The notes under the pieces are model-generated. The model searched no databases. It worked only from the letters and a program-made list of their open reading frames with translations, and was not told where the DNA came from. The position numbers and the translations under genes were made by a program. From the NCBI GenBank assembly GCA_016209865.1, contig JACQVL010000025.1, forward strand, positions 1 through 9,791: a stretch of 9,791 nucleotides of DNA. The letters run 5' to 3'. This document shows, in pieces, positions 1,676 through 9,791 of the stretch. The first letter of the stretch is position 1. Every line of letters begins with the position of its first letter. This DNA comes from Candidatus Latescibacterota bacterium. Lineage in GTDB: Bacteria > JAAXHH01 > JACQVL01.

Positions 1676-3598
1676 TCACCACGTATGAATCACGTGTCCC
1701 TGTCCGGGGAACCAGATCGCATCGATCACTGATGACACGACCACGCTCAGGGCATAGCCCGCCAGCATCCCGATGAAGATCGGCTGGCCTTTCTTGTAGA
1801 GGCTCACCCCGCCCAACCGGAGCAGGATGAGCTTGACCAGCCAGGCGAGGAAGATCGAGAACGTCACGACCCGCACCACGTTCGACCCGGCGATGGCGAA
1901 CCCGATCGGATGGATCGGCCATGAGGGAAACAGGTAACGCAGCGCGATCAGCCCGCCCGCCAGGATAACCCCCGCGATGAAGAACAGTTGCTCCGGCCGG
2001 GAGATGGCGGTCGGGTTCTTCATCCAGGTGACGATGATCTGGATGTACCCTTCTCCCGCTCCAGTCGCCTCGCTCGCGCTGCCGAACGAGGTGACATGAT
2101 GAGGGTTGTAGCCCATGTAGATCGTCCACACGACCGCCGTGAGCATGCCCACGGTCGCGGCGGCGCACAGCGTCCCGTACAGCCGGAACCGCTCCCGGCC
2201 GAGCGTCCGCTCGATGTAGATCAGGTGAGATAGGCCGCTCATCGAGAAGAACCGCCAATTGCGGGCGTAGACGTTCGCCAGGCCGAGGGACACCAGCGTC
2301 GGAGGGTTGAGACTCCCGGAGCCCAATGCCCCGATCGTGAACTCGTTGGCGTTCACTGGCAGGTCGAGGTAGGCTAACCCAGTCTCCGCCACAATCCTGG
2401 CGATGCCCAGGTACAGGACGAACAACGCGAACAGGAACACGGCCGCCACCCAGAGGGCCATGCCCGACGCGTGCAGCCACGCGACGACGTACACGACCCC
2501 GATCATCAGACCGATGACTGCGCTCCGGTAGGGGATCAATTCCTCCCGGTCGTCCAGGCCACTGGGACGCCCAACCGTGTGCCGGAGCACCGCCTTCAGG
2601 TGCCGGCGAGCCGTCCAGAGCGTCCAGAGGACGAATACGACGAACCCGCCGAAGTAATGGGAGAGCATCGCGGAGTTGAGACCCAGTGTCGAGGCGGAAT
2701 ACGAGATGCCCAACTGGTTGAGTAGTCCGGTCAAGAGGGTCGCAACTCCCTGGAAGAGCCAGACACTGAACAGCACCTCGACGTTCGTGAAGAACGCACA
2801 CGCTAAGACGAGAAAATTGATCTTGATCGGAAGCGCCGGGATGGCCCGGCCGAGGCTGATGTTCGCCTGGTACGCCGTCCCGATCGGGATGACCCCGATG
2901 GGCATGAAATAGTCGATGATGTTCCACCCGATGATGAAGACGGGGATGCTGAACCCGACCCAGAACAGCCTCTGCCGCAGGTACGGCGGGATGGCGCTCC
3001 GGTCATCTTGCTGCATCATCGCCAGCGGGATGTGGGCGAGTGGAAACGTCAGCTTCTCGTGCTCGATCCATTGCTTGCGTAGGAGCACGATCGTGCAGGA
3101 GCCGGCCAGGAACAGCGCGCCGACGAACGTCATCCACCAGAAGACCGGGATCGTCCAGGCTCTCCACGGAATCCCCTGGCCTTCCGGCAGTCCTTCATAG
3201 AACCACGTCAACGCGTTCCCCTGATTCGTGACGACGAGCCACTGCGGGAGATGGGGGAAGAGCAGGGTCTCCCACTGGTTCTCCGAGGAGGCGAAGTAGT
3301 TGGGAACGGTGATCACCCGGAAGAAATAGTTGGAGAACCCGAACCCGGGCACTGTCGACGCGATCAGTCCCATGCCGAAGATCGTAAACAGTTCCGGCGT
3401 CGAGAGCCGCCAGCAGGATCGCAACCGGGCGAGCAGTGGGTTGATGGCCGCCGTCAGGAGGAACAGCGGCATCAGCACGATGATGGGAATATGGGCGATC
3501 GTCATCAACGAGGATCGTACCGCGAAATCCGCGTAGATCGTCCAGACGTTGATGAGTACTGTCAGCAGAAGGCCGATCAGGATTGCCCGGAGGGTCAT
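1676..3598 (-). CDS. Large polytopic membrane protein, DUF6785/DUF6784-like (OPT-like)
   Basis: The 640-residue product is dominated by long hydrophobic stretches, roughly a dozen or more membrane segments, beginning at the first residues (RAILIGLLLTVLINVWTIYA). Short charged loops lie between them, including WIEHEKLTFPLAHIPL after the first third and a Trp/Arg-rich loop near the middle (LWTARRHLKAVLRH). Overall pattern and length recall the uncharacterised DUF6785/DUF6784 membrane proteins, distantly like oligopeptide (OPT) transporters. That assignment is from memory of the family, and substrate is unknown. Start: the frame is open back to 3646, but codons 3599-3646 are intergenic repeat DNA, so ATG at 3596-3598 (MTLRAIL) is chosen. 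Its ribosome site is weak (GGAA about 8 bases upstream). It lies downstream of the DUF4097 gene on the same strand but 245 bp away, so co-transcription is uncertain. Confidence 0.75.
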   Translation of the reverse strand: MTLRAILIGLLLTVLINVWTIYADFAVRSSLMTIAHIPIIVLMPLFLLTAAINPLLARLRSCWRLSTPELFTIFGMGLIASTVPGFGFSNYFFRVITVPNYFASSENQWETLLFPHLPQWLVVTNQGNALTWFYEGLPEGQGIPWRAWTIPVFWWMTFVGALFLAGSCTIVLLRKQWIEHEKLTFPLAHIPLAMMQQDDRSAIPPYLRQRLFWVGFSIPVFIIGWNIIDYFMPIGVIPIGTAYQANISLGRAIPALPIKINFLVLACAFFTNVEVLFSVWLFQGVATLLTGLLNQLGISYSASTLGLNSAMLSHYFGGFVVFVLWTLWTARRHLKAVLRHTVGRPSGLDDREELIPYRSAVIGLMIGVVYVVAWLHASGMALWVAAVFLFALFVLYLGIARIVAETGLAYLDLPVNANEFTIGALGSGSLNPPTLVSLGLANVYARNWRFFSMSGLSHLIYIERTLGRERFRLYGTLCAAATVGMLTAVVWTIYMGYNPHHVTSFGSASEATGAGEGYIQIIVTWMKNPTAISRPEQLFFIAGVILAGGLIALRYLFPSWPIHPIGFAIAGSNVVRVVTFSIFLAWLVKLILLRLGGVSLYKKGQPIFIGMLAGYALSVVVSSVIDAIWFPGQGHVIHTW

Positions 3599-3606
3599 AG
3601 GTAGAG

Positions 3607-3692
3607 TTCCAAGTTTCAGGTTCCAGGTTTCAAGTCCATAGTCCATCCAGGCTGTCGTTTTGATTTTGAACCTGGAATCTGGAACTTGAAAC
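3607..3692. repeat. Imperfect inverted repeat of GGAAC/TTGAAAC units
   Basis: The left arm (3607-3634) is built from TTCCAAGTTTCAGG and TTCCAGGTTTCAAG units. The right arm (3666-3692) has the complementary GAACCTGGAATCTGGAAC and TTGAAAC units. About 30 bases separate the arms, so the RNA could form a long imperfect hairpin. The DNA is low-complexity, intergenic and unlike the neighbouring genes in composition. It gives spurious N-terminal extensions in minus-strand frames. The rest of the spacer (3693-3843) shows nothing recognisable. Confidence 0.6.
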
Positions 3693-3843: not shown

Positions 3844-4644
3844 CTACCGTTGCCGCAGACGGTAATTCCCTTTGTGCGTTCTGAGGCTGAGGGTCGGCCC
3901 TCCACCGTTCACGGCGCCGCGGTATTCGATGTCACGGTAAGACCGGGACCGGCCTCGGCTCAGCCGCTTGACGCTGAACTCGAAGTCCGCGTCCAGGTCG
4001 CCATGCCCGATGTCGGCATCCAGGTCGAACCCCTTGCCCTTCGGGAGGACGAGGTCGACCGTCCCTTTAAACGTCTCGATCCGGTTCCGCTGGAACAGAG
4101 TGACGAATTCGACCCGAACCTCACTTTTGAAGGTGTCCAGATCGAGTGACCCCTCAAACCCGGAAATCGTGATCGGGCCTTTGAAGCTGTTGATCTTGAG
4201 ATGGGATCGGAGGCCGGTCACTTTGAGAGTCGACTTGAAATCCTTGATCGTCAACTGCGCGGTACGCGGCATGGAGATGGTGTAGTGAACGTACGGAAAC
4301 CGGATATTATCGTCATCGAAGGCAGAGTGCCAATCCTGGAGTTTCTCGTAATCGGATTTGATCCAGACTGAACTCTCAGAGGCCTCGATATCCACCTCCG
4401 TGTTCTGCACCGTCTGGGCCTGATCGTCTGATTCCTCATCCGCTTCCACCCGTGCCTGGATGTCCACCTGCGGGCGATCCCAGGCGGTCACTGTGACGCT
4501 CCCTTTGAACGTGTCGATCGACACTCGCCCGTCCGGGTTCAGGGTGACGGTCTTCTTGACTTCTTTGACCTCCTGGGCCGCCGTCGCGCTCAGGCTCAGG
4601 ACGCTAAGCATCAGCAGGCAGAGCAGAATCGAGACGACTTTCAT
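3844..4644 (-). CDS. Secreted DUF4097-type beta-repeat protein
   Basis: The 266-residue product has a clear Sec signal peptide (MKVV, then a hydrophobic core to about residue 19, cleavage near SATAA, residues 19-23). The mature part looks like the DUF4097 'putative adhesin' fold: short beta-strands and F-K-[GS] turns at 46, 136, 154, 172 and 192. Between 136 and 180 the rungs repeat every nine residues (DFKSTLKVT, GLRSHLKIN, SFKGPITIS, GFEGSLDLD, TFKSEVRVE), as in a right-handed beta-solenoid. Residues 66-84 are acidic and probably a loop. Function is not established for the family; cell-envelope location is inferred from the signal peptide. The start is secure: AAGGAGG (4656-4650 on the minus strand) lies 5 bases before the ATG. 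It is transcribed divergently from the permease gene. Confidence 0.8.
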   Translation of the reverse strand: MKVVSILLCLLMLSVLSLSATAAQEVKEVKKTVTLNPDGRVSIDTFKGSVTVTAWDRPQVDIQARVEADEESDDQAQTVQNTEVDIEASESSVWIKSDYEKLQDWHSAFDDDNIRFPYVHYTISMPRTAQLTIKDFKSTLKVTGLRSHLKINSFKGPITISGFEGSLDLDTFKSEVRVEFVTLFQRNRIETFKGTVDLVLPKGKGFDLDADIGHGDLDADFEFSVKRLSRGRSRSYRDIEYRGAVNGGGPTLSLRTHKGNYRLRQR

Positions 4645-4890: not shown

Positions 4891-6261
4891 GTGGACATGC
4901 CCGATGGACTCAAACGGCAGATCGGCCTCGGCCCGGCCACGGCCATCGTCGTGGGTGAGATGATCGCGGTCGGCATTTTCCTGACTCCGGCCGGGATGGC
5001 CAGATCGCTCGGGTCGCCCTTCTGGCTGCTCCTCGTCTGGCTGGTGATGGGCGGGATGGCGTTCAGCGGGGCGCTCTGTTACGGGGAGCTGGCCGCCCGG
5101 TTCCCCGACGCGGGCGGGGGGTATGTGTACCTGCGGCAGGCGTACGGCCCGCCGCTCGCGTTCCTGTACGGCTGGATGTCCTTCCTCGTCATGGACCCCG
5201 GCATCACCGCCGCCTTAGGCGTCGGGCTGGCCAGTTACGCCGGGTATATCGTCGCCCTGTCCCCGCTCGGCATCAAGGTCGTGGCCATCGGGACGATCGT
5301 AGGGCTGGCTGCGGCGAACATCCTGGGCGTCCGGCTCGGCGCCGGTTTGATGAGCGGGTTGACGGCGATCAAACTCGGTCTGCTCGCCCTGATCGCGCTC
5401 TGGGGGTTTGGCCTCGGCCTGGGCGACTGGTCCCACCTGACTCCGTTCGTCGCCCAGCGGCCGGGTTCTCCTCCGCTCCTGGGCGCGCTGGCGGGCGGGA
5501 TGGTGGCGGCGTTCTTCTCGTTCGGGGGATGGTGGGACCTGAGCAAAGTGGCGGGTGAAGTCCGTGAACCGACCCGGACGCTGCCCCGCGCCTTAGCGCT
5601 CGGCGTCCTGACCGTCACCCTCGCCTATATCCTGACGAGCGCGGTCTTCATGTACCTGGTGCCCGTGGAGCGCGTCACGTCCGACGAGACGTTCGCGGCT
5701 CAGGCGGGCGAGGCGCTCTTCGGTCGATCGGGCGGGCTGATCTTCTCGACGATCGTCATCATCTCCGTCCTGGGCAGCCTGGCCGGGATCGTCATGAGCG
5801 CGCCACGGGTGTACTATGCGATGGCGCGCGACAGGGTCTTCCTGGCCGCCGCCGCCTCGGTCCACCCACGGTTCGGCACCCCCGCCCGCGCGATCGCCCT
5901 CCAGGCCGGCCTGGCGTCGGGCCTGGTGGCGCTCGGCACGTTCGATGACATCGTCGCGTATTTCATCTTCATGGCGGTCGTGTTCATCGCTCTGACCGTG
6001 GCGGGGGTGTTCGTCCTCCGACGGAAACGACCGGATGTCCCCACCTACCAGATTCCAGCCTACCCGGTCGTTCCTGTCGTGTTTCTGATCCTGGTGGCCG
6101 TGCTGTTGGTGTTACTCGTCGGGCACAACCCCAGACAGGCGTTGTTGGGGACGGGCGTAGTCGCGCTCGGTGTCCCGGTGTATTATCTCTTATTCCGTCA
6201 CAAGAAAGGAACCCTTTCCCATGACCTGGATTCGGACGATTCCGCTGTCAGAAGCGGATGA
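4891..6261 (+). CDS. APC-superfamily amino-acid permease
   Basis: The 456-residue product has the size and layout of a 12-segment APC transporter, probably of the LAT/SteT-like branch. TM1 carries the unwound substrate-binding signature GEMIAVGIF (22-30). TM2-TM3 include GALCYGELAARFP and GGGYVYL. The cytoplasmic loop motif GEVREPTRTLPRA lies just before mid-protein, and YYAMARDRVF followed by VHPRFGTPARA marks the segment 8-9 loop. Such proteins move amino acids by proton symport or exchange; specificity cannot be read here. The GTG start at 4891 is preferred over ATG 4897 because GGAG (4880-4883) is 7 bases from the GTG. The last 41 bases overlap the start of the selenoprotein gene, so the two are probably translationally coupled and lead one operon. 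Confidence 0.88.
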   Translation: MDMPDGLKRQIGLGPATAIVVGEMIAVGIFLTPAGMARSLGSPFWLLLVWLVMGGMAFSGALCYGELAARFPDAGGGYVYLRQAYGPPLAFLYGWMSFLVMDPGITAALGVGLASYAGYIVALSPLGIKVVAIGTIVGLAAANILGVRLGAGLMSGLTAIKLGLLALIALWGFGLGLGDWSHLTPFVAQRPGSPPLLGALAGGMVAAFFSFGGWWDLSKVAGEVREPTRTLPRALALGVLTVTLAYILTSAVFMYLVPVERVTSDETFAAQAGEALFGRSGGLIFSTIVIISVLGSLAGIVMSAPRVYYAMARDRVFLAAAASVHPRFGTPARAIALQAGLASGLVALGTFDDIVAYFIFMAVVFIALTVAGVFVLRRKRPDVPTYQIPAYPVVPVVFLILVAVLLVLLVGHNPRQALLGTGVVALGVPVYYLLFRHKKGTLSHDLDSDDSAVRSG

Positions 6262-6787
6262 ACGGCTGCGCCGGGCGATGGAGGGACAGCGGGCGCTCTA
6301 TCCGTCTGAGTATGCAACCCCCGTCCATCCGACCGATGATGGCACGGCCGGCATCGTGGCCTCGCATACCCTCATCCCGGACGCGCTCTACCACGCGTTC
6401 GCCACGTTCGGGTCGCTGATGTCGCCCGACCTCCCCCTCGCCCGGCGGCAGCACGAGATGATCACGACGATGGTGTCCGTCACGAACCGGTGCGTCTACT
6501 GAGTGGAGTCGCACGCAGAGTTTCTGCGTCGGGTCACGTTAGATGCGGAGCTGGTTCAGGCGTTGCAGGAGGACTACACCACCGCGCCCATCAGCGAGCA
6601 GGAGCGGGTGATGCTCGACTACGTGGTGCAGGTGACGAAAGACGCCACGCAGATCACCCAGCGCCACCATGAGCGGCTTCGAGCCGTCGGGTTCGACGAT
6701 ACCGCCATCCTGCAGATCACCCTCATCGCTTCCTGGTTCAATTACATCAACCGGGTGGCGGACGCGCTGGGGGTCGGGCGGGAGTAG
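6221..6787 (+). CDS. AhpD-like peroxidase-related selenoprotein, Sec at TGA 6500-6502
   Basis: Reading through TGA 6500-6502 joins two ORFs in the same frame into one 188-residue protein. Its length and sequence fit the AhpD-like 'peroxidase-related enzyme' branch of the carboxymuconolactone decarboxylase family. The active site reads Glu79, Cys91, Sec94, His98 (RQHEM...RCVYUVESH). The spacings equal those of mycobacterial AhpD (Glu118, Cys130, Cys133, His137), so Sec falls on the peroxidatic cysteine. Such enzymes are reductases or peroxidases acting on peroxides through a dithiol; here the centre would be a selenenylsulfide. Helical segments conserved in the family continue after the TGA ([37 protein letters not shown]), so the second half is not decayed. 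Start ATG 6221 has AAAGGA at 6205-6210 and lies inside the permease 3' end. The regulator gene starts 17 bases after the stop. A cysteine-to-stop mutation is the alternative, but is less likely given the SECIS-like hairpin. Confidence 0.87.
6503..6537 (+). promoter_or_regulatory. Bacterial SECIS-like hairpin after the Sec codon
   Basis: A perfect 6-bp apical stem, ACGCAG (6513-6518) with CTGCGT (6524-6529), closes a five-base loop AGTTT whose second base is G. Sixteen bases separate the TGA from the loop, within the range known for bacterial SECIS elements and close to the 18 bases of E. coli fdhF. A lower stem, GTGG (6503-6506) with TCAC (6534-6537, one G-U pair), can extend it. The hairpin lies wholly in coding sequence, as bacterial SECIS elements must, and would recruit SelB with Sec-tRNA. 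Confidence 0.75.
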
Positions 6788-6803: not shown

Positions 6804-8264
6804 ATGACAGCCCCGGTGGCATTCTTACGCTCGCTCGATTACTTGCAGAAGGTGCCCGACGATCTCATCCAGAAGATCGCGAAGGACATGCAGGCGATCG
6901 ATATCCCTGCCGGGACCACCCTCTTCCACGAGGGGGACGAGGGCGATGCGGTCTATATCGTCGTGGACGGGATCCTCAGCATTGAGCGTGACGACACCCC
7001 GGTAGTGACCCGTGGCCCCGGGGAACTCGTGGGCGAATTTGCGCTGCTCGACAACCACAGCCGCAGCGCGACGGTCATCGCCGCCAGCGACGCCCGGCTC
7101 TTCAAGTGGCTACGGACGGATTTCACCGATGTGCTCTCCCAGAACGTCATGCTGGTCTGGGGGATTCTCACCACGATCATCGAGAAGGCCCGCCAGAGCA
7201 CGACCGCGCAATACGAGACGATCTACCCTGGGAAGCCCACCACGCCAGCAACCGTCACGCTCCCCGGGAGCGACTGGGTGCCCGAAAAACGGCTCGTCTA
7301 CCAGAGCGCTCCGATGCGACAGATTTTCGACCTCATCCGGAAGATCGAACACAGCACCAGCAGCGTGTTGATTACGGGCGAATCCGGGACCGGCAAGGAG
7401 ATGGTGGCCCGGGCGATCCATCATGCCAGTCCGTATCGTGACGGCCCCTTCGTTGCCCTTAACTGCGGCGCGCTCCCAGAAACTCTCGCCGAATCCGAAC
7501 TGTTCGGGCAAGAGCGTGGTTCGTTTACCGGGTCAGCCCGTGAGCAGCAAGGGAAGATCGAACTCGCTCACCAGGGCACGCTCTTTCTGGATGAAATCAG
7601 TGAACTCCCACCGTCGCTCCAGGTGAAACTCCTCCGCGTCCTGGATGATCGGCGAGTTCTCCACCTAGGCGGCACCAGGCCCATCGTCACCGAGTTTCGG
7701 GTGATTGCCGCGACCAACCGCGATCTCGCACAGGAAATCAGGGAGGGCCATTTTCGGGAAGACCTCTTCTATCGCCTTGCCGTCATCACGATTCACATCC
7801 CGCCGTTACGACAGCGTCTGGATGACATCCTGCCGCTGGCGGAGCATTTTCTGAGTGAGATCTCGAATCAGTTCGGGCAGCCAAAGGTATTCGGCCCTCG
7901 CGTGCTCGAGTATCTGCAGCGCCAGCCCTGGAAGGGTAACGTGCGGGAACTCCGCAACGCCATCGAACGGGCGGTGATGGTCTCCGAGGGGAACCAGATT
8001 GAGCTTGGTGATATTCGTCTACCGGGACAGCCCTCTCCCGATCGTGGGAGGTATCCACTCGAAGCCGCGTCTACGGGCGGATTGGAGAATCTGCTCCAGC
8101 ACCTGAACCTTCGGGACGCGCAAACGAACGTGCTGGAACTCGTCGAAAAGATCCTGATGGAATTGGCCCTGGCTCAAACGAACGGGAATATGAGTCAGGC
8201 CGCGAAGCTGCTCGGTCTCAACTACAAGCAGGTCACGCGCCGGCTGAAGAAGTATGGTGGCTGA
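6804..8264 (+). CDS. Sigma-54 activator: cNMP-binding domain + AAA+ + Fis-type HTH
   Basis: The 486-residue product is a bacterial enhancer-binding protein. Residues 8-112 form a CRP-type cyclic-nucleotide domain with its phosphate-binding cassette at 73-91 (GELVGEF, Glu78; SRSATV, Arg87), so ligand binding looks intact. Residues 168-400 are the sigma-54 AAA+ domain: Walker A GESGTGKE (192-199), L1 loop GSFTGS (239-244), Walker B GTLFLDE (258-264), FREDLFYRL (317-325), sensor II GNVREL (378-383). The C-terminus (about 455-486, MSQAAKLLGLNYKQVTRRLKKYG) is a Fis-type DNA-binding helix-turn-helix. The L1 loop differs from consensus GAFTGA by two Ala-to-Ser changes but keeps the Phe and Thr that touch sigma-54. 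cNMP input is less common than GAF or receiver domains. Start ATG 6804 follows AGAGG (6791-6795); the frame is open upstream but that part is shadow of the selenoprotein. The likely target is the sigma-54 promoter at 8765. Confidence 0.92.
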   Translation: MTAPVAFLRSLDYLQKVPDDLIQKIAKDMQAIDIPAGTTLFHEGDEGDAVYIVVDGILSIERDDTPVVTRGPGELVGEFALLDNHSRSATVIAASDARLFKWLRTDFTDVLSQNVMLVWGILTTIIEKARQSTTAQYETIYPGKPTTPATVTLPGSDWVPEKRLVYQSAPMRQIFDLIRKIEHSTSSVLITGESGTGKEMVARAIHHASPYRDGPFVALNCGALPETLAESELFGQERGSFTGSAREQQGKIELAHQGTLFLDEISELPPSLQVKLLRVLDDRRVLHLGGTRPIVTEFRVIAATNRDLAQEIREGHFREDLFYRLAVITIHIPPLRQRLDDILPLAEHFLSEISNQFGQPKVFGPRVLEYLQRQPWKGNVRELRNAIERAVMVSEGNQIELGDIRLPGQPSPDRGRYPLEAASTGGLENLLQHLNLRDAQTNVLELVEKILMELALAQTNGNMSQAAKLLGLNYKQVTRRLKKYGG

Positions 8265-8304: not shown

Positions 8305-8610
8305 ATGCTCGTTGTCCACGACAAATGTACCTTTTTACGGAGCCTGGATCTGTTCGCGCACGTGTCGGACGCCACGCTGGAGCAGATTATGGCCGGGATG
8401 GACGAGGTGACGTCTGCCGCCATGAATGTCTGTTTCATGAAGGCGAGGCGGGCGATGCGCTGTATCTGATCGTCCAGGGGCAGATCCGGATTCTCAAGCA
8501 CGAGGTGGAAGTCCTGGTGTGAGGCCCTGGCGATTGCGTGGGCGAGATGGTCCTGTTAGTCGCGTATCCGTGAGGTTCGTCGGTCCGTCACGAAGAGCGA
8601 TACCGGTTTC
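8305..8610 (+). pseudogene. Decayed cNMP-binding-domain gene (frameshift, two stops)
   Basis: An ATG at 8305 with a strong ribosome site (GGGAGG 8294-8299, 5-base spacing) opens a frame whose product starts like a cNMP domain (CTFLRSLDLFAHVSDATLEQ), sharing FLRSLD with the preceding regulator. Near 8428-8430 the homology jumps to the +2 frame (LFHEGEAGDALYLIVQGQIRI). It is then cut by TGA at 8520-8522 just before GPGDCVGEMVLL, the phosphate-binding cassette, and by a second TGA at 8571-8573. Both stops fall where related cassettes have Arg (TRGPGE; the cassette Arg before SATV), so CGA-to-TGA changes explain them. No downstream AAA+ or HTH remains. It probably arose as a tandem paralog of the adjacent cNMP domain or as a stand-alone CRP-like gene. 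The right boundary is approximate. Confidence 0.72.
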
Positions 8611-8617
8611 CACCCTC

Positions 8618-8672
8618 AGTCAAAATCGACTACGGATCTGGTCGAAAACGACTAGTGTTCAGAGAACGACTT
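8618..8672 (+). promoter_or_regulatory. Candidate enhancer (UAS) sites for the sigma-54 activator
   Basis: Two palindromes have centres exactly 22 bases (two helical turns) apart: AGTC-aaaatc-GACT (8618-8631) and GTCG-aaaa-CGAC (8641-8652). In register they give the shared form RGTC-N6-GACTA. A third half-site, AACGACTT, ends at 8672, 18 bases on. They lie about 125-170 bases upstream of the expected start of transcription, where enhancer-binding proteins usually bind, and in AT-richer DNA than the surroundings. Binding by the adjacent Fis-type HTH is inference. Confidence 0.5.
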
Positions 8673-8878: not shown

Positions 8879-9791
8879 ATGAGAACAGTCTCTGCAAGGG
8901 GCACAGCGCTGGTGGTATTGATGCTGTGTGGGGGAGGGTGCGGTCGGCCGGGTCCACTCGCCCCCCACGAGTCCCAGCGCAGCGTCGCGAAGGTCAGTGG
9001 TCAGCACAGTGCAGGCACTCAGGTTGTCGGGGGAGTTGAGGATGGAGTTGGTGGGCCTGGAGCTCAGGTCGGCGGCCCCGGAGACGACCACCAAGACGGC
9101 GGCGACGGGAATGATGTCCAAATCGGGGGGTTCGGGAACGACGAGCAACACGGGGGGCGCGGGGATGATCTCCAATTCGGGATGGAAGGGAACGACCGCC
9201 AATTCGGGGATGAAGGGGACGACAAGCAACTCGGGGGGCCTGGGAGCGATGAGCAACACGGCGGCCCCGGGAATGACGTCCAACGGGGCGGCCCCGGAAG
9301 CCCTCCAGACTCGCTCAGGGTTAGCCTTGAGCAGGACGGAGAGGACTTCCAATTCGGGGATGCAGGGGACGATACCCAGATCGGCGACAATGGGGATGAC
9401 GAGCAAGACGGGGGGGAAGGCAACGATACGCAATACGGTGATGAAGGGAATGACGTTCAAGTCGGGGGGGCCGGGGATGACGAGCAACACGGCGGCATCG
9501 GCCGGGACACTCAATCCGGCGGGGAGGGCAATGACGTCCTTTTCGGTGACGGGGGGAATGACAAGCAATTCGGCGACGAGGGGGATGACCACCTCTCCGG
9601 CGGCGAGGGGAATGATACCCAGGACGGCGGGCCCGGGGACGATACTATCCGTCCGGGGGGCGGGGATGGCCAGGTGGATGGGGGAGACGGCAACGATACG
9701 GTCGAGCTCTCCGGGACGGGGTGGCGGAACAACCGCGATGGCAGTTATACCCACTCCAGTACCGGAGAGACGATCACGACCCGGAATGTGG
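8879..9791 (+). CDS. RTX (calcium-binding nonapeptide) repeat protein, 3'-truncated by window
   Basis: The frame from ATG 8879 (AAGGGGG at 8864-8870, 8-base spacing) is open for 304 codons to the window edge. After a hydrophobic start (TALVVLMLCGGGC, residues 9-21: a signal peptide, possibly with a poor lipobox at Cys21) and a Gly/Val-rich linker come nonapeptides GGxGxDxQx. Eight fill 65-136, a degenerate stretch covers 137-159, eleven fill 160-258, and one degenerate and one good unit end at 276. Residues 277-304 leave the repeat. In known RTX proteins, Gly and Asp of this motif bind calcium in a parallel beta-roll, and the proteins are exported, often by type I secretion. Here position 8, normally Leu/Ile/Phe, is Gln in 16 of 20 clear units. 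The N-terminal signal is odd for type I export. The sigma-54 promoter lies just upstream. Catalytic domain, true length and secretion genes are outside the window. Confidence 0.87.
   Translation, partial: MRTVSARGTALVVLMLCGGGCGRPGPLAPHESQRSVAKVSGQHSAGTQVVGGVEDGVGGPGAQVGGPGDDHQDGGDGNDVQIGGFGNDEQHGGRGDDLQFGMEGNDRQFGDEGDDKQLGGPGSDEQHGGPGNDVQRGGPGSPPDSLRVSLEQDGEDFQFGDAGDDTQIGDNGDDEQDGGEGNDTQYGDEGNDVQVGGAGDDEQHGGIGRDTQSGGEGNDVLFGDGGNDKQFGDEGDDHLSGGEGNDTQDGGPGDDTIRPGGGDGQVDGGDGNDTVELSGTGWRNNRDGSYTHSSTGETITTRNV

Follow-up and report, generated by a model that had tools for sequence, protein, structure and literature searches.

In AhpD, the second cysteine of the CxxC motif is the peroxidatic residue. 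The proton relay of Mycobacterium tuberculosis AhpD is made up of Glu118, Cys130, His132, Cys133, and His137 (PMC3141380). Deletion of an AhpD-like gene from Deinococcus radiodurans increased the sensitivity to H2O2, and the CxxC motif was needed for full complementation (PMC8945050). AhpD-like proteins of TIGR01926/COG2128 with a CxxU motif were described as a selenoprotein family in the Sargasso Sea selenoproteome in 2005 (PMC1088965), were named 'AhpD-like 1' in GOS 2008 (PMC2398784), and are found in Table 1 of a 2026 review (PMC13188914). The protein analyzed here resembles that family in its domain family by model, in the position of selenocysteine (Sec), in its downstream bSECIS, and in the widespread occurrence of Cys homologs. 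However, the described family comes mainly from marine sequence, whereas the members of the subgroup found here belong to Zixibacteria, Acidobacteriota, and Gemmatimonadota, and their genes often have an APC permease gene as a partner. The original prediction for this locus had treated CxxU proteins of the AhpD type as known, which agrees with their naming in 2005 and tabulation in 2026. Since the family has been described since 2005, the protein adds a member to an established selenoprotein type.

The window, which is the whole stretch of DNA that was analyzed (9,791 nt, Candidatus Latescibacterota bacterium), is an entire 9.8-kb contig from an assembly of 356 contigs, and the binned genome is 83% complete. 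When UGA was read as Sec, positions 6221-6787 of the forward strand formed a single frame of 188 aa, in which U94 was the sole internal stop (Table 1). The joined protein scored 114 bits against the TIGR01926 profile ('peroxidase-related enzyme'), above the curated cut-off of 81.8, and is a member of this family; it also matched Pfam CMD with 40.7 bits (cut-off 23). In contrast, the separate halves scored 22 and 70 bits against TIGR01926, both below the cut-off, and neither half had a Pfam match. Membership of three other families was rejected. The protein scored 23.5 bits against canonical AhpD (TIGR00777; cut-off 191.95), 59 bits against NF041238 (cut-off 175), and 43 bits against NF053654 (cut-off 310). 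NF041238 (AhpD_rel_CFYUT, alkylhydroperoxidase-related (seleno)protein) has a related AhpD domain with CxxU, but its model is 357 aa long, and NF053654 (GroundWater_YciW (seleno)protein) is a Sec/Cys family with a related domain.

Table 1. Positions of the selenoprotein gene, its recoding signals, and its neighbors in the window
Feature	Position	Strand	Remarks
APC-superfamily (LAT/BasC-like) amino-acid permease	4891..6261	+	Conserved neighbor; 3' end overlaps AhpD start by 41 nt
Shine-Dalgarno-like AAGAAAGGA	6202..6210	+	Putative, from sequence; within permease gene, ATG 10 nt further on
AhpD-like selenoprotein gene (predicted), 188 aa including Sec94	6221..6787	+	ATG start, TAG stop
Sec codon TGA, U94 in C91-V-Y-U94	6500..6502	+	TGA in 94/95 distinct orthologs, TGC in 1
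bSECIS apical stem-loop, ACGCAG / loop AGUUU / CUGCGU	6513..6529	+	Conserved core, compensatory exchange, z = -3.5
cNMP-binding + sigma-54 activator + Fis-HTH regulator	6804..8264	+	16 nt downstream of AhpD gene; neighbor only

Sec is at the second position of a CxxC-type motif (C91xxU94), within the array Glu79-x11-Cys91-x2-Sec94-x3-His98. This spacing had been claimed to equal that of the mycobacterial enzyme, and it does: Glu79, Cys91, Tyr93, U94, and His98 are placed as Glu118, Cys130, His132, Cys133, and His137 of M. tuberculosis AhpD, and P. aeruginosa PA0269 likewise has Tyr at the His132 position (PMC3141380). The predicted core matched the AhpD-type structures 3c1l, 7xw1, 2pfx, and 6k40 with Z of 15-19; 6k40, a D. 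radiodurans AhpD structure, was also the third-best sequence match. M. tuberculosis AhpD (1knc/1gu9) shared the fold (Z 11.7) but had only about 13% identity to the window protein and Cys in place of Sec. The N-terminus of the predicted structure was weak, with pLDDT below 50 at residues 1-7 and 43-71. Because Bmp8 debrominase and Sestrin2 were also among the fold matches, and members of the AhpD fold vary in function, the modeled fold would not by itself fix the substrate of the window protein.

In the mechanism that we propose, the UGA at 6500 would be recoded during translation by a bSECIS hairpin with its loop starting 16 nt downstream, and SelB would deliver to this codon the Sec-tRNA(Sec) that SelA and SelD help to make. 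The product would adopt a helical AhpD fold, in which Cys91-x-x-Sec94 would lie on a helix hairpin beside Glu79 and His98. Because the second Cys is peroxidatic in AhpD, the most likely attacking group on the substrate, a peroxide or a disulfide, would be Sec94. Cys91 would resolve the intermediate, and the resulting Se-S bond would be reduced by a cellular thiol or lipoyl system. We infer the peroxidase or disulfide-reductase chemistry from the fold, the motif, AhpD, and the Cys homologs.

The permease gene was examined in the relatives set, which comprised 191 genomes including that of the window, and elsewhere. A permease was adjacent to or overlapping the upstream end of the AhpD-like gene, on the same strand, at 15 of 16 testable loci in the relatives set and at 18 of 77 loci elsewhere. 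The pairing spanned Zixibacteria, Gemmatimonadota, and Acidobacteriota, with overlaps of 1-41 nt in many pairs, and was absent beside most Terriglobia orthologs. The permease is a genuine conserved partner of the Sec AhpD-like gene. In sequence it was nearest to LAT/xCT-type light chains and to an amino-acid transporter from bacteria whose structure has been solved (6f2g/9h76); 6f2g is presumably the Ala-Ser-Cys exchanger BasC. A literature search at title and abstract level found no report of an AhpD-permease pair.

The pairing across three phyla suggests a shared physiological role, possibly in thiol amino-acid uptake or redox. It also favors the view that the selenoprotein is not a peroxidase and is instead a thiol/selenol oxidoreductase of the AhpD fold, reducing for example cystine or another compound that the permease imports. 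The many short overlaps, the likeness of the permease to LAT/xCT light chains and the 6f2g/9h76 transporter, and the functional variety of AhpD-fold proteins are consistent with such an enzyme. However, the Glu/Cys/Sec/His catalytic set is that of AhpD peroxidases, and since most Terriglobia orthologs lie without the permease, the enzyme does not need it; we consider a non-peroxidase to be a serious possibility, though an unlikely one. A narrower proposal, that a LAT/BasC-type exchanger is translated with a Sec AhpD-like reductase as a widely shared two-gene module coupling thiol/selenium amino-acid uptake to selenium-based redox in Zixibacteria, Gemmatimonadota, and Acidobacteriota, is speculative and in our judgment doubtful.

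The original prediction had placed the AhpD-like gene in an operon with a transporter and a cNMP-sigma-54 regulator. The transporter part stood, with its 41-nt overlap and conservation, but the regulator was adjacent in the window genome only. It was not found downstream of the Sec ortholog in any relative with flanking DNA; one Latescibacterota locus (L147) had a partial sigma-54 activator match, which lay upstream. The regulator was rejected as a functional partner because its adjacency is not conserved in relatives, and its position beside the Sec gene thus argues weakly for an operon with a shared function. Directly after the regulator, positions 8323-8633 held a degenerate second copy of the cNMP-binding domain with a frameshift and two stops, likely a decayed duplicate. 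Positions 8879-9790 held an ORF that ran off the contig end; it had a lipoprotein-like start and, after this, Ca-binding repeats of the RTX type (PF00353, 42 bits). A neutral-ceramidase-like protein (PF04734, 295-1611) and a DUF6785/DUF6784 membrane protein (1676-3646) are unrelated to the Sec finding.

Orthologs were compared at the Sec codon. The relatives set contained 17 further orthologs (70-81% identity), all 17 with one internal TGA, at codon 94, so that with the window's own genome a TGA ortholog was present in 18 genomes. From a second genome collection, 80 close relatives were kept (Acidobacteriota, Gemmatimonadota, Zixibacteria, and one Latescibacterota), and 79 of these loci had TGA and one TGC. 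Such agreement at a single codon greatly exceeds what chance would produce. Three contigs were common to both sets, leaving 95 distinct loci: TGA was present in 94 and TGC in one, and neither TAA nor TAG was found. Cys occupied the Sec column in the close ortholog L147 and in the more distant homologs L040, L042, and L043. The data bear out the claim that the TGA at 6500-6502 stands at the second Cys position of the CxxC, and relatives at this codon carried TGA, once Cys, and never a random stop.

These data bear on the reading that the TGA is a true nonsense mutation in a pseudogene, or a boundary between two parts of the enzyme that are translated separately. In favor of this reading, the TGA is directly followed by a GTG (6503), so that two ORFs would come out of gene calling. 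However, 94 of 95 distinct orthologs, from at least three phyla, retained the TGA and none had TAA or TAG in its place, purifying selection acted both 5' and 3' of it (dN far below dS on both sides), the SECIS was conserved, and neither half contained the whole active-site hairpin. A pseudogene or split gene is very improbable and is refuted by this conservation.

The hairpin downstream of the TGA had 6 bp and the loop AGUUU, with the loop start 16 nt after the TGA and G at loop position 2 followed by U. By itself the apical hairpin had a folding energy of -8.8 kcal/mol (z = -3.5). It conformed to the bSECIS model given in PMC13188914 on each of its four constraints. Numbering the T of TGA as 1, the 17-nt core (nt 13-29) was identical across 85 aligned rows, which include two contigs twice, save one C-to-T change. 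Synonymous codon identity among 17 aligned orthologs was 1.0 at codons 98-102, compared with a gene mean of 0.67 (permutation p < 1e-5). Among 26 diverse Sec-AhpD sequences the pair nt 17/27 was C-G in 11 and G-C in 14, a compensatory exchange. In a few distant paralogs the stem was shifted and lay outside this register. Several other Sec-containing AhpD-like paralogs (L052-L070 and L041-L049; CxxU, about 30-40% identity) were present in related genomes, most of them with an equivalent hairpin. A second AhpD-Sec copy was sought in the window genome and none was found.

A sequencing or assembly error for TGC or TGT at 6500 would agree with the TGC of L147 and with the fragmented, binned assembly of the window, but TGA stood at the Sec codon in independent genomes from different studies; such an error is extremely unlikely and is refuted by the independent assemblies. 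The L147 locus (L147:7001-7564, Latescibacterota) had TGC (Cys) at the Sec codon, an intact 17-nt SECIS core, and a long branch, and its genome contained SelA, SelB, and tRNA-Sec. This TGC may be a recent Sec-to-Cys switch, a base error, or a case of retained hairpin use. Latescibacterota genomes searched for more Cys forms yielded one further ortholog only, which carried one TGA.

The original prediction had named selA, selB, selC, and selD as genes to look for in the rest of the genome, and all four were found in the bin. Lack of selA/selB/selC and random stops at the Sec codon in relatives had been named as refuting conditions, and the prediction withstood both. SelB scored 337 bits (cut-off 242), SelA 351 bits, and SelD 390 bits; the tRNA-Sec, 82 nt downstream of SelB, scored 68 bits and was called tRNA-SeC with anticodon tca by ARAGORN. 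The SelD (L166, G000:C19:21578-22510) is itself a selenoprotein, with an in-frame TGA in the active-site motif GAG-U-ACK. SelB exceeded the cut-off in 15 of the 18 relatives-set genomes that carry a TGA ortholog. Two of the remaining three were 85-87% complete, and the third, G076 (99% complete), had a strong SelA and a tRNA-Sec. Because the window makes up one complete contig, it is binning that links it to the sel genes, and GC was in agreement (58-66% in the window, 61-65% at other bin loci). Upstream of the permease, on the opposite strand, lay a DUF4097 gene (3844-4644) with 42% identity to L122:1-663 on a Zixibacteria contig, and this common gene supports the binning. That the whole genome reads UGA as a standard amino acid such as Trp or Gly has a negligible probability and is refuted, with no point in its favor. 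TGA is the normal stop of the adjoining permease (6259-6261) and regulator (8262-8264) genes, which shows that the code has not been changed throughout; SelA/B/C/D are present, and the Sec column of homologs holds Cys and neither Trp nor Gly.

The conserved TGA, the SECIS, the compensatory stem, and the sel genes in the bin together indicate, with high confidence, that the predicted product of 6221-6787 is a selenoprotein. The gene structure and its decoding, as read from comparative sequence data, are well supported. The explanation as a whole, namely a TIGR01926-family selenoprotein with a bSECIS-recoded UGA and redox chemistry at Sec94, is in our view very probably correct. In the tree, whose backbone is unresolved, the window row fell outside the supported clade of its order-mates, which suggests a possible horizontal origin from Acidobacteriota or Gemmatimonadota.

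The window protein is a new family member from a phylum whose use of selenium has received little discussion; in the literature searched, a single paper names both selenoproteins and Zixibacteria. Pipelines that read TGA as a stop would annotate each such gene as a pair of fragments, and this in phyla of soil and sediment whose selenium use is little described; the Sec codon is intact at 94 distinct loci. The AhpD-like CxxU selenoprotein type is known, and the conserved permease pairing is the part for which titles and abstracts gave no earlier report; this partner is a concrete lead on the role of an uncharacterized AhpD-like selenoprotein family.
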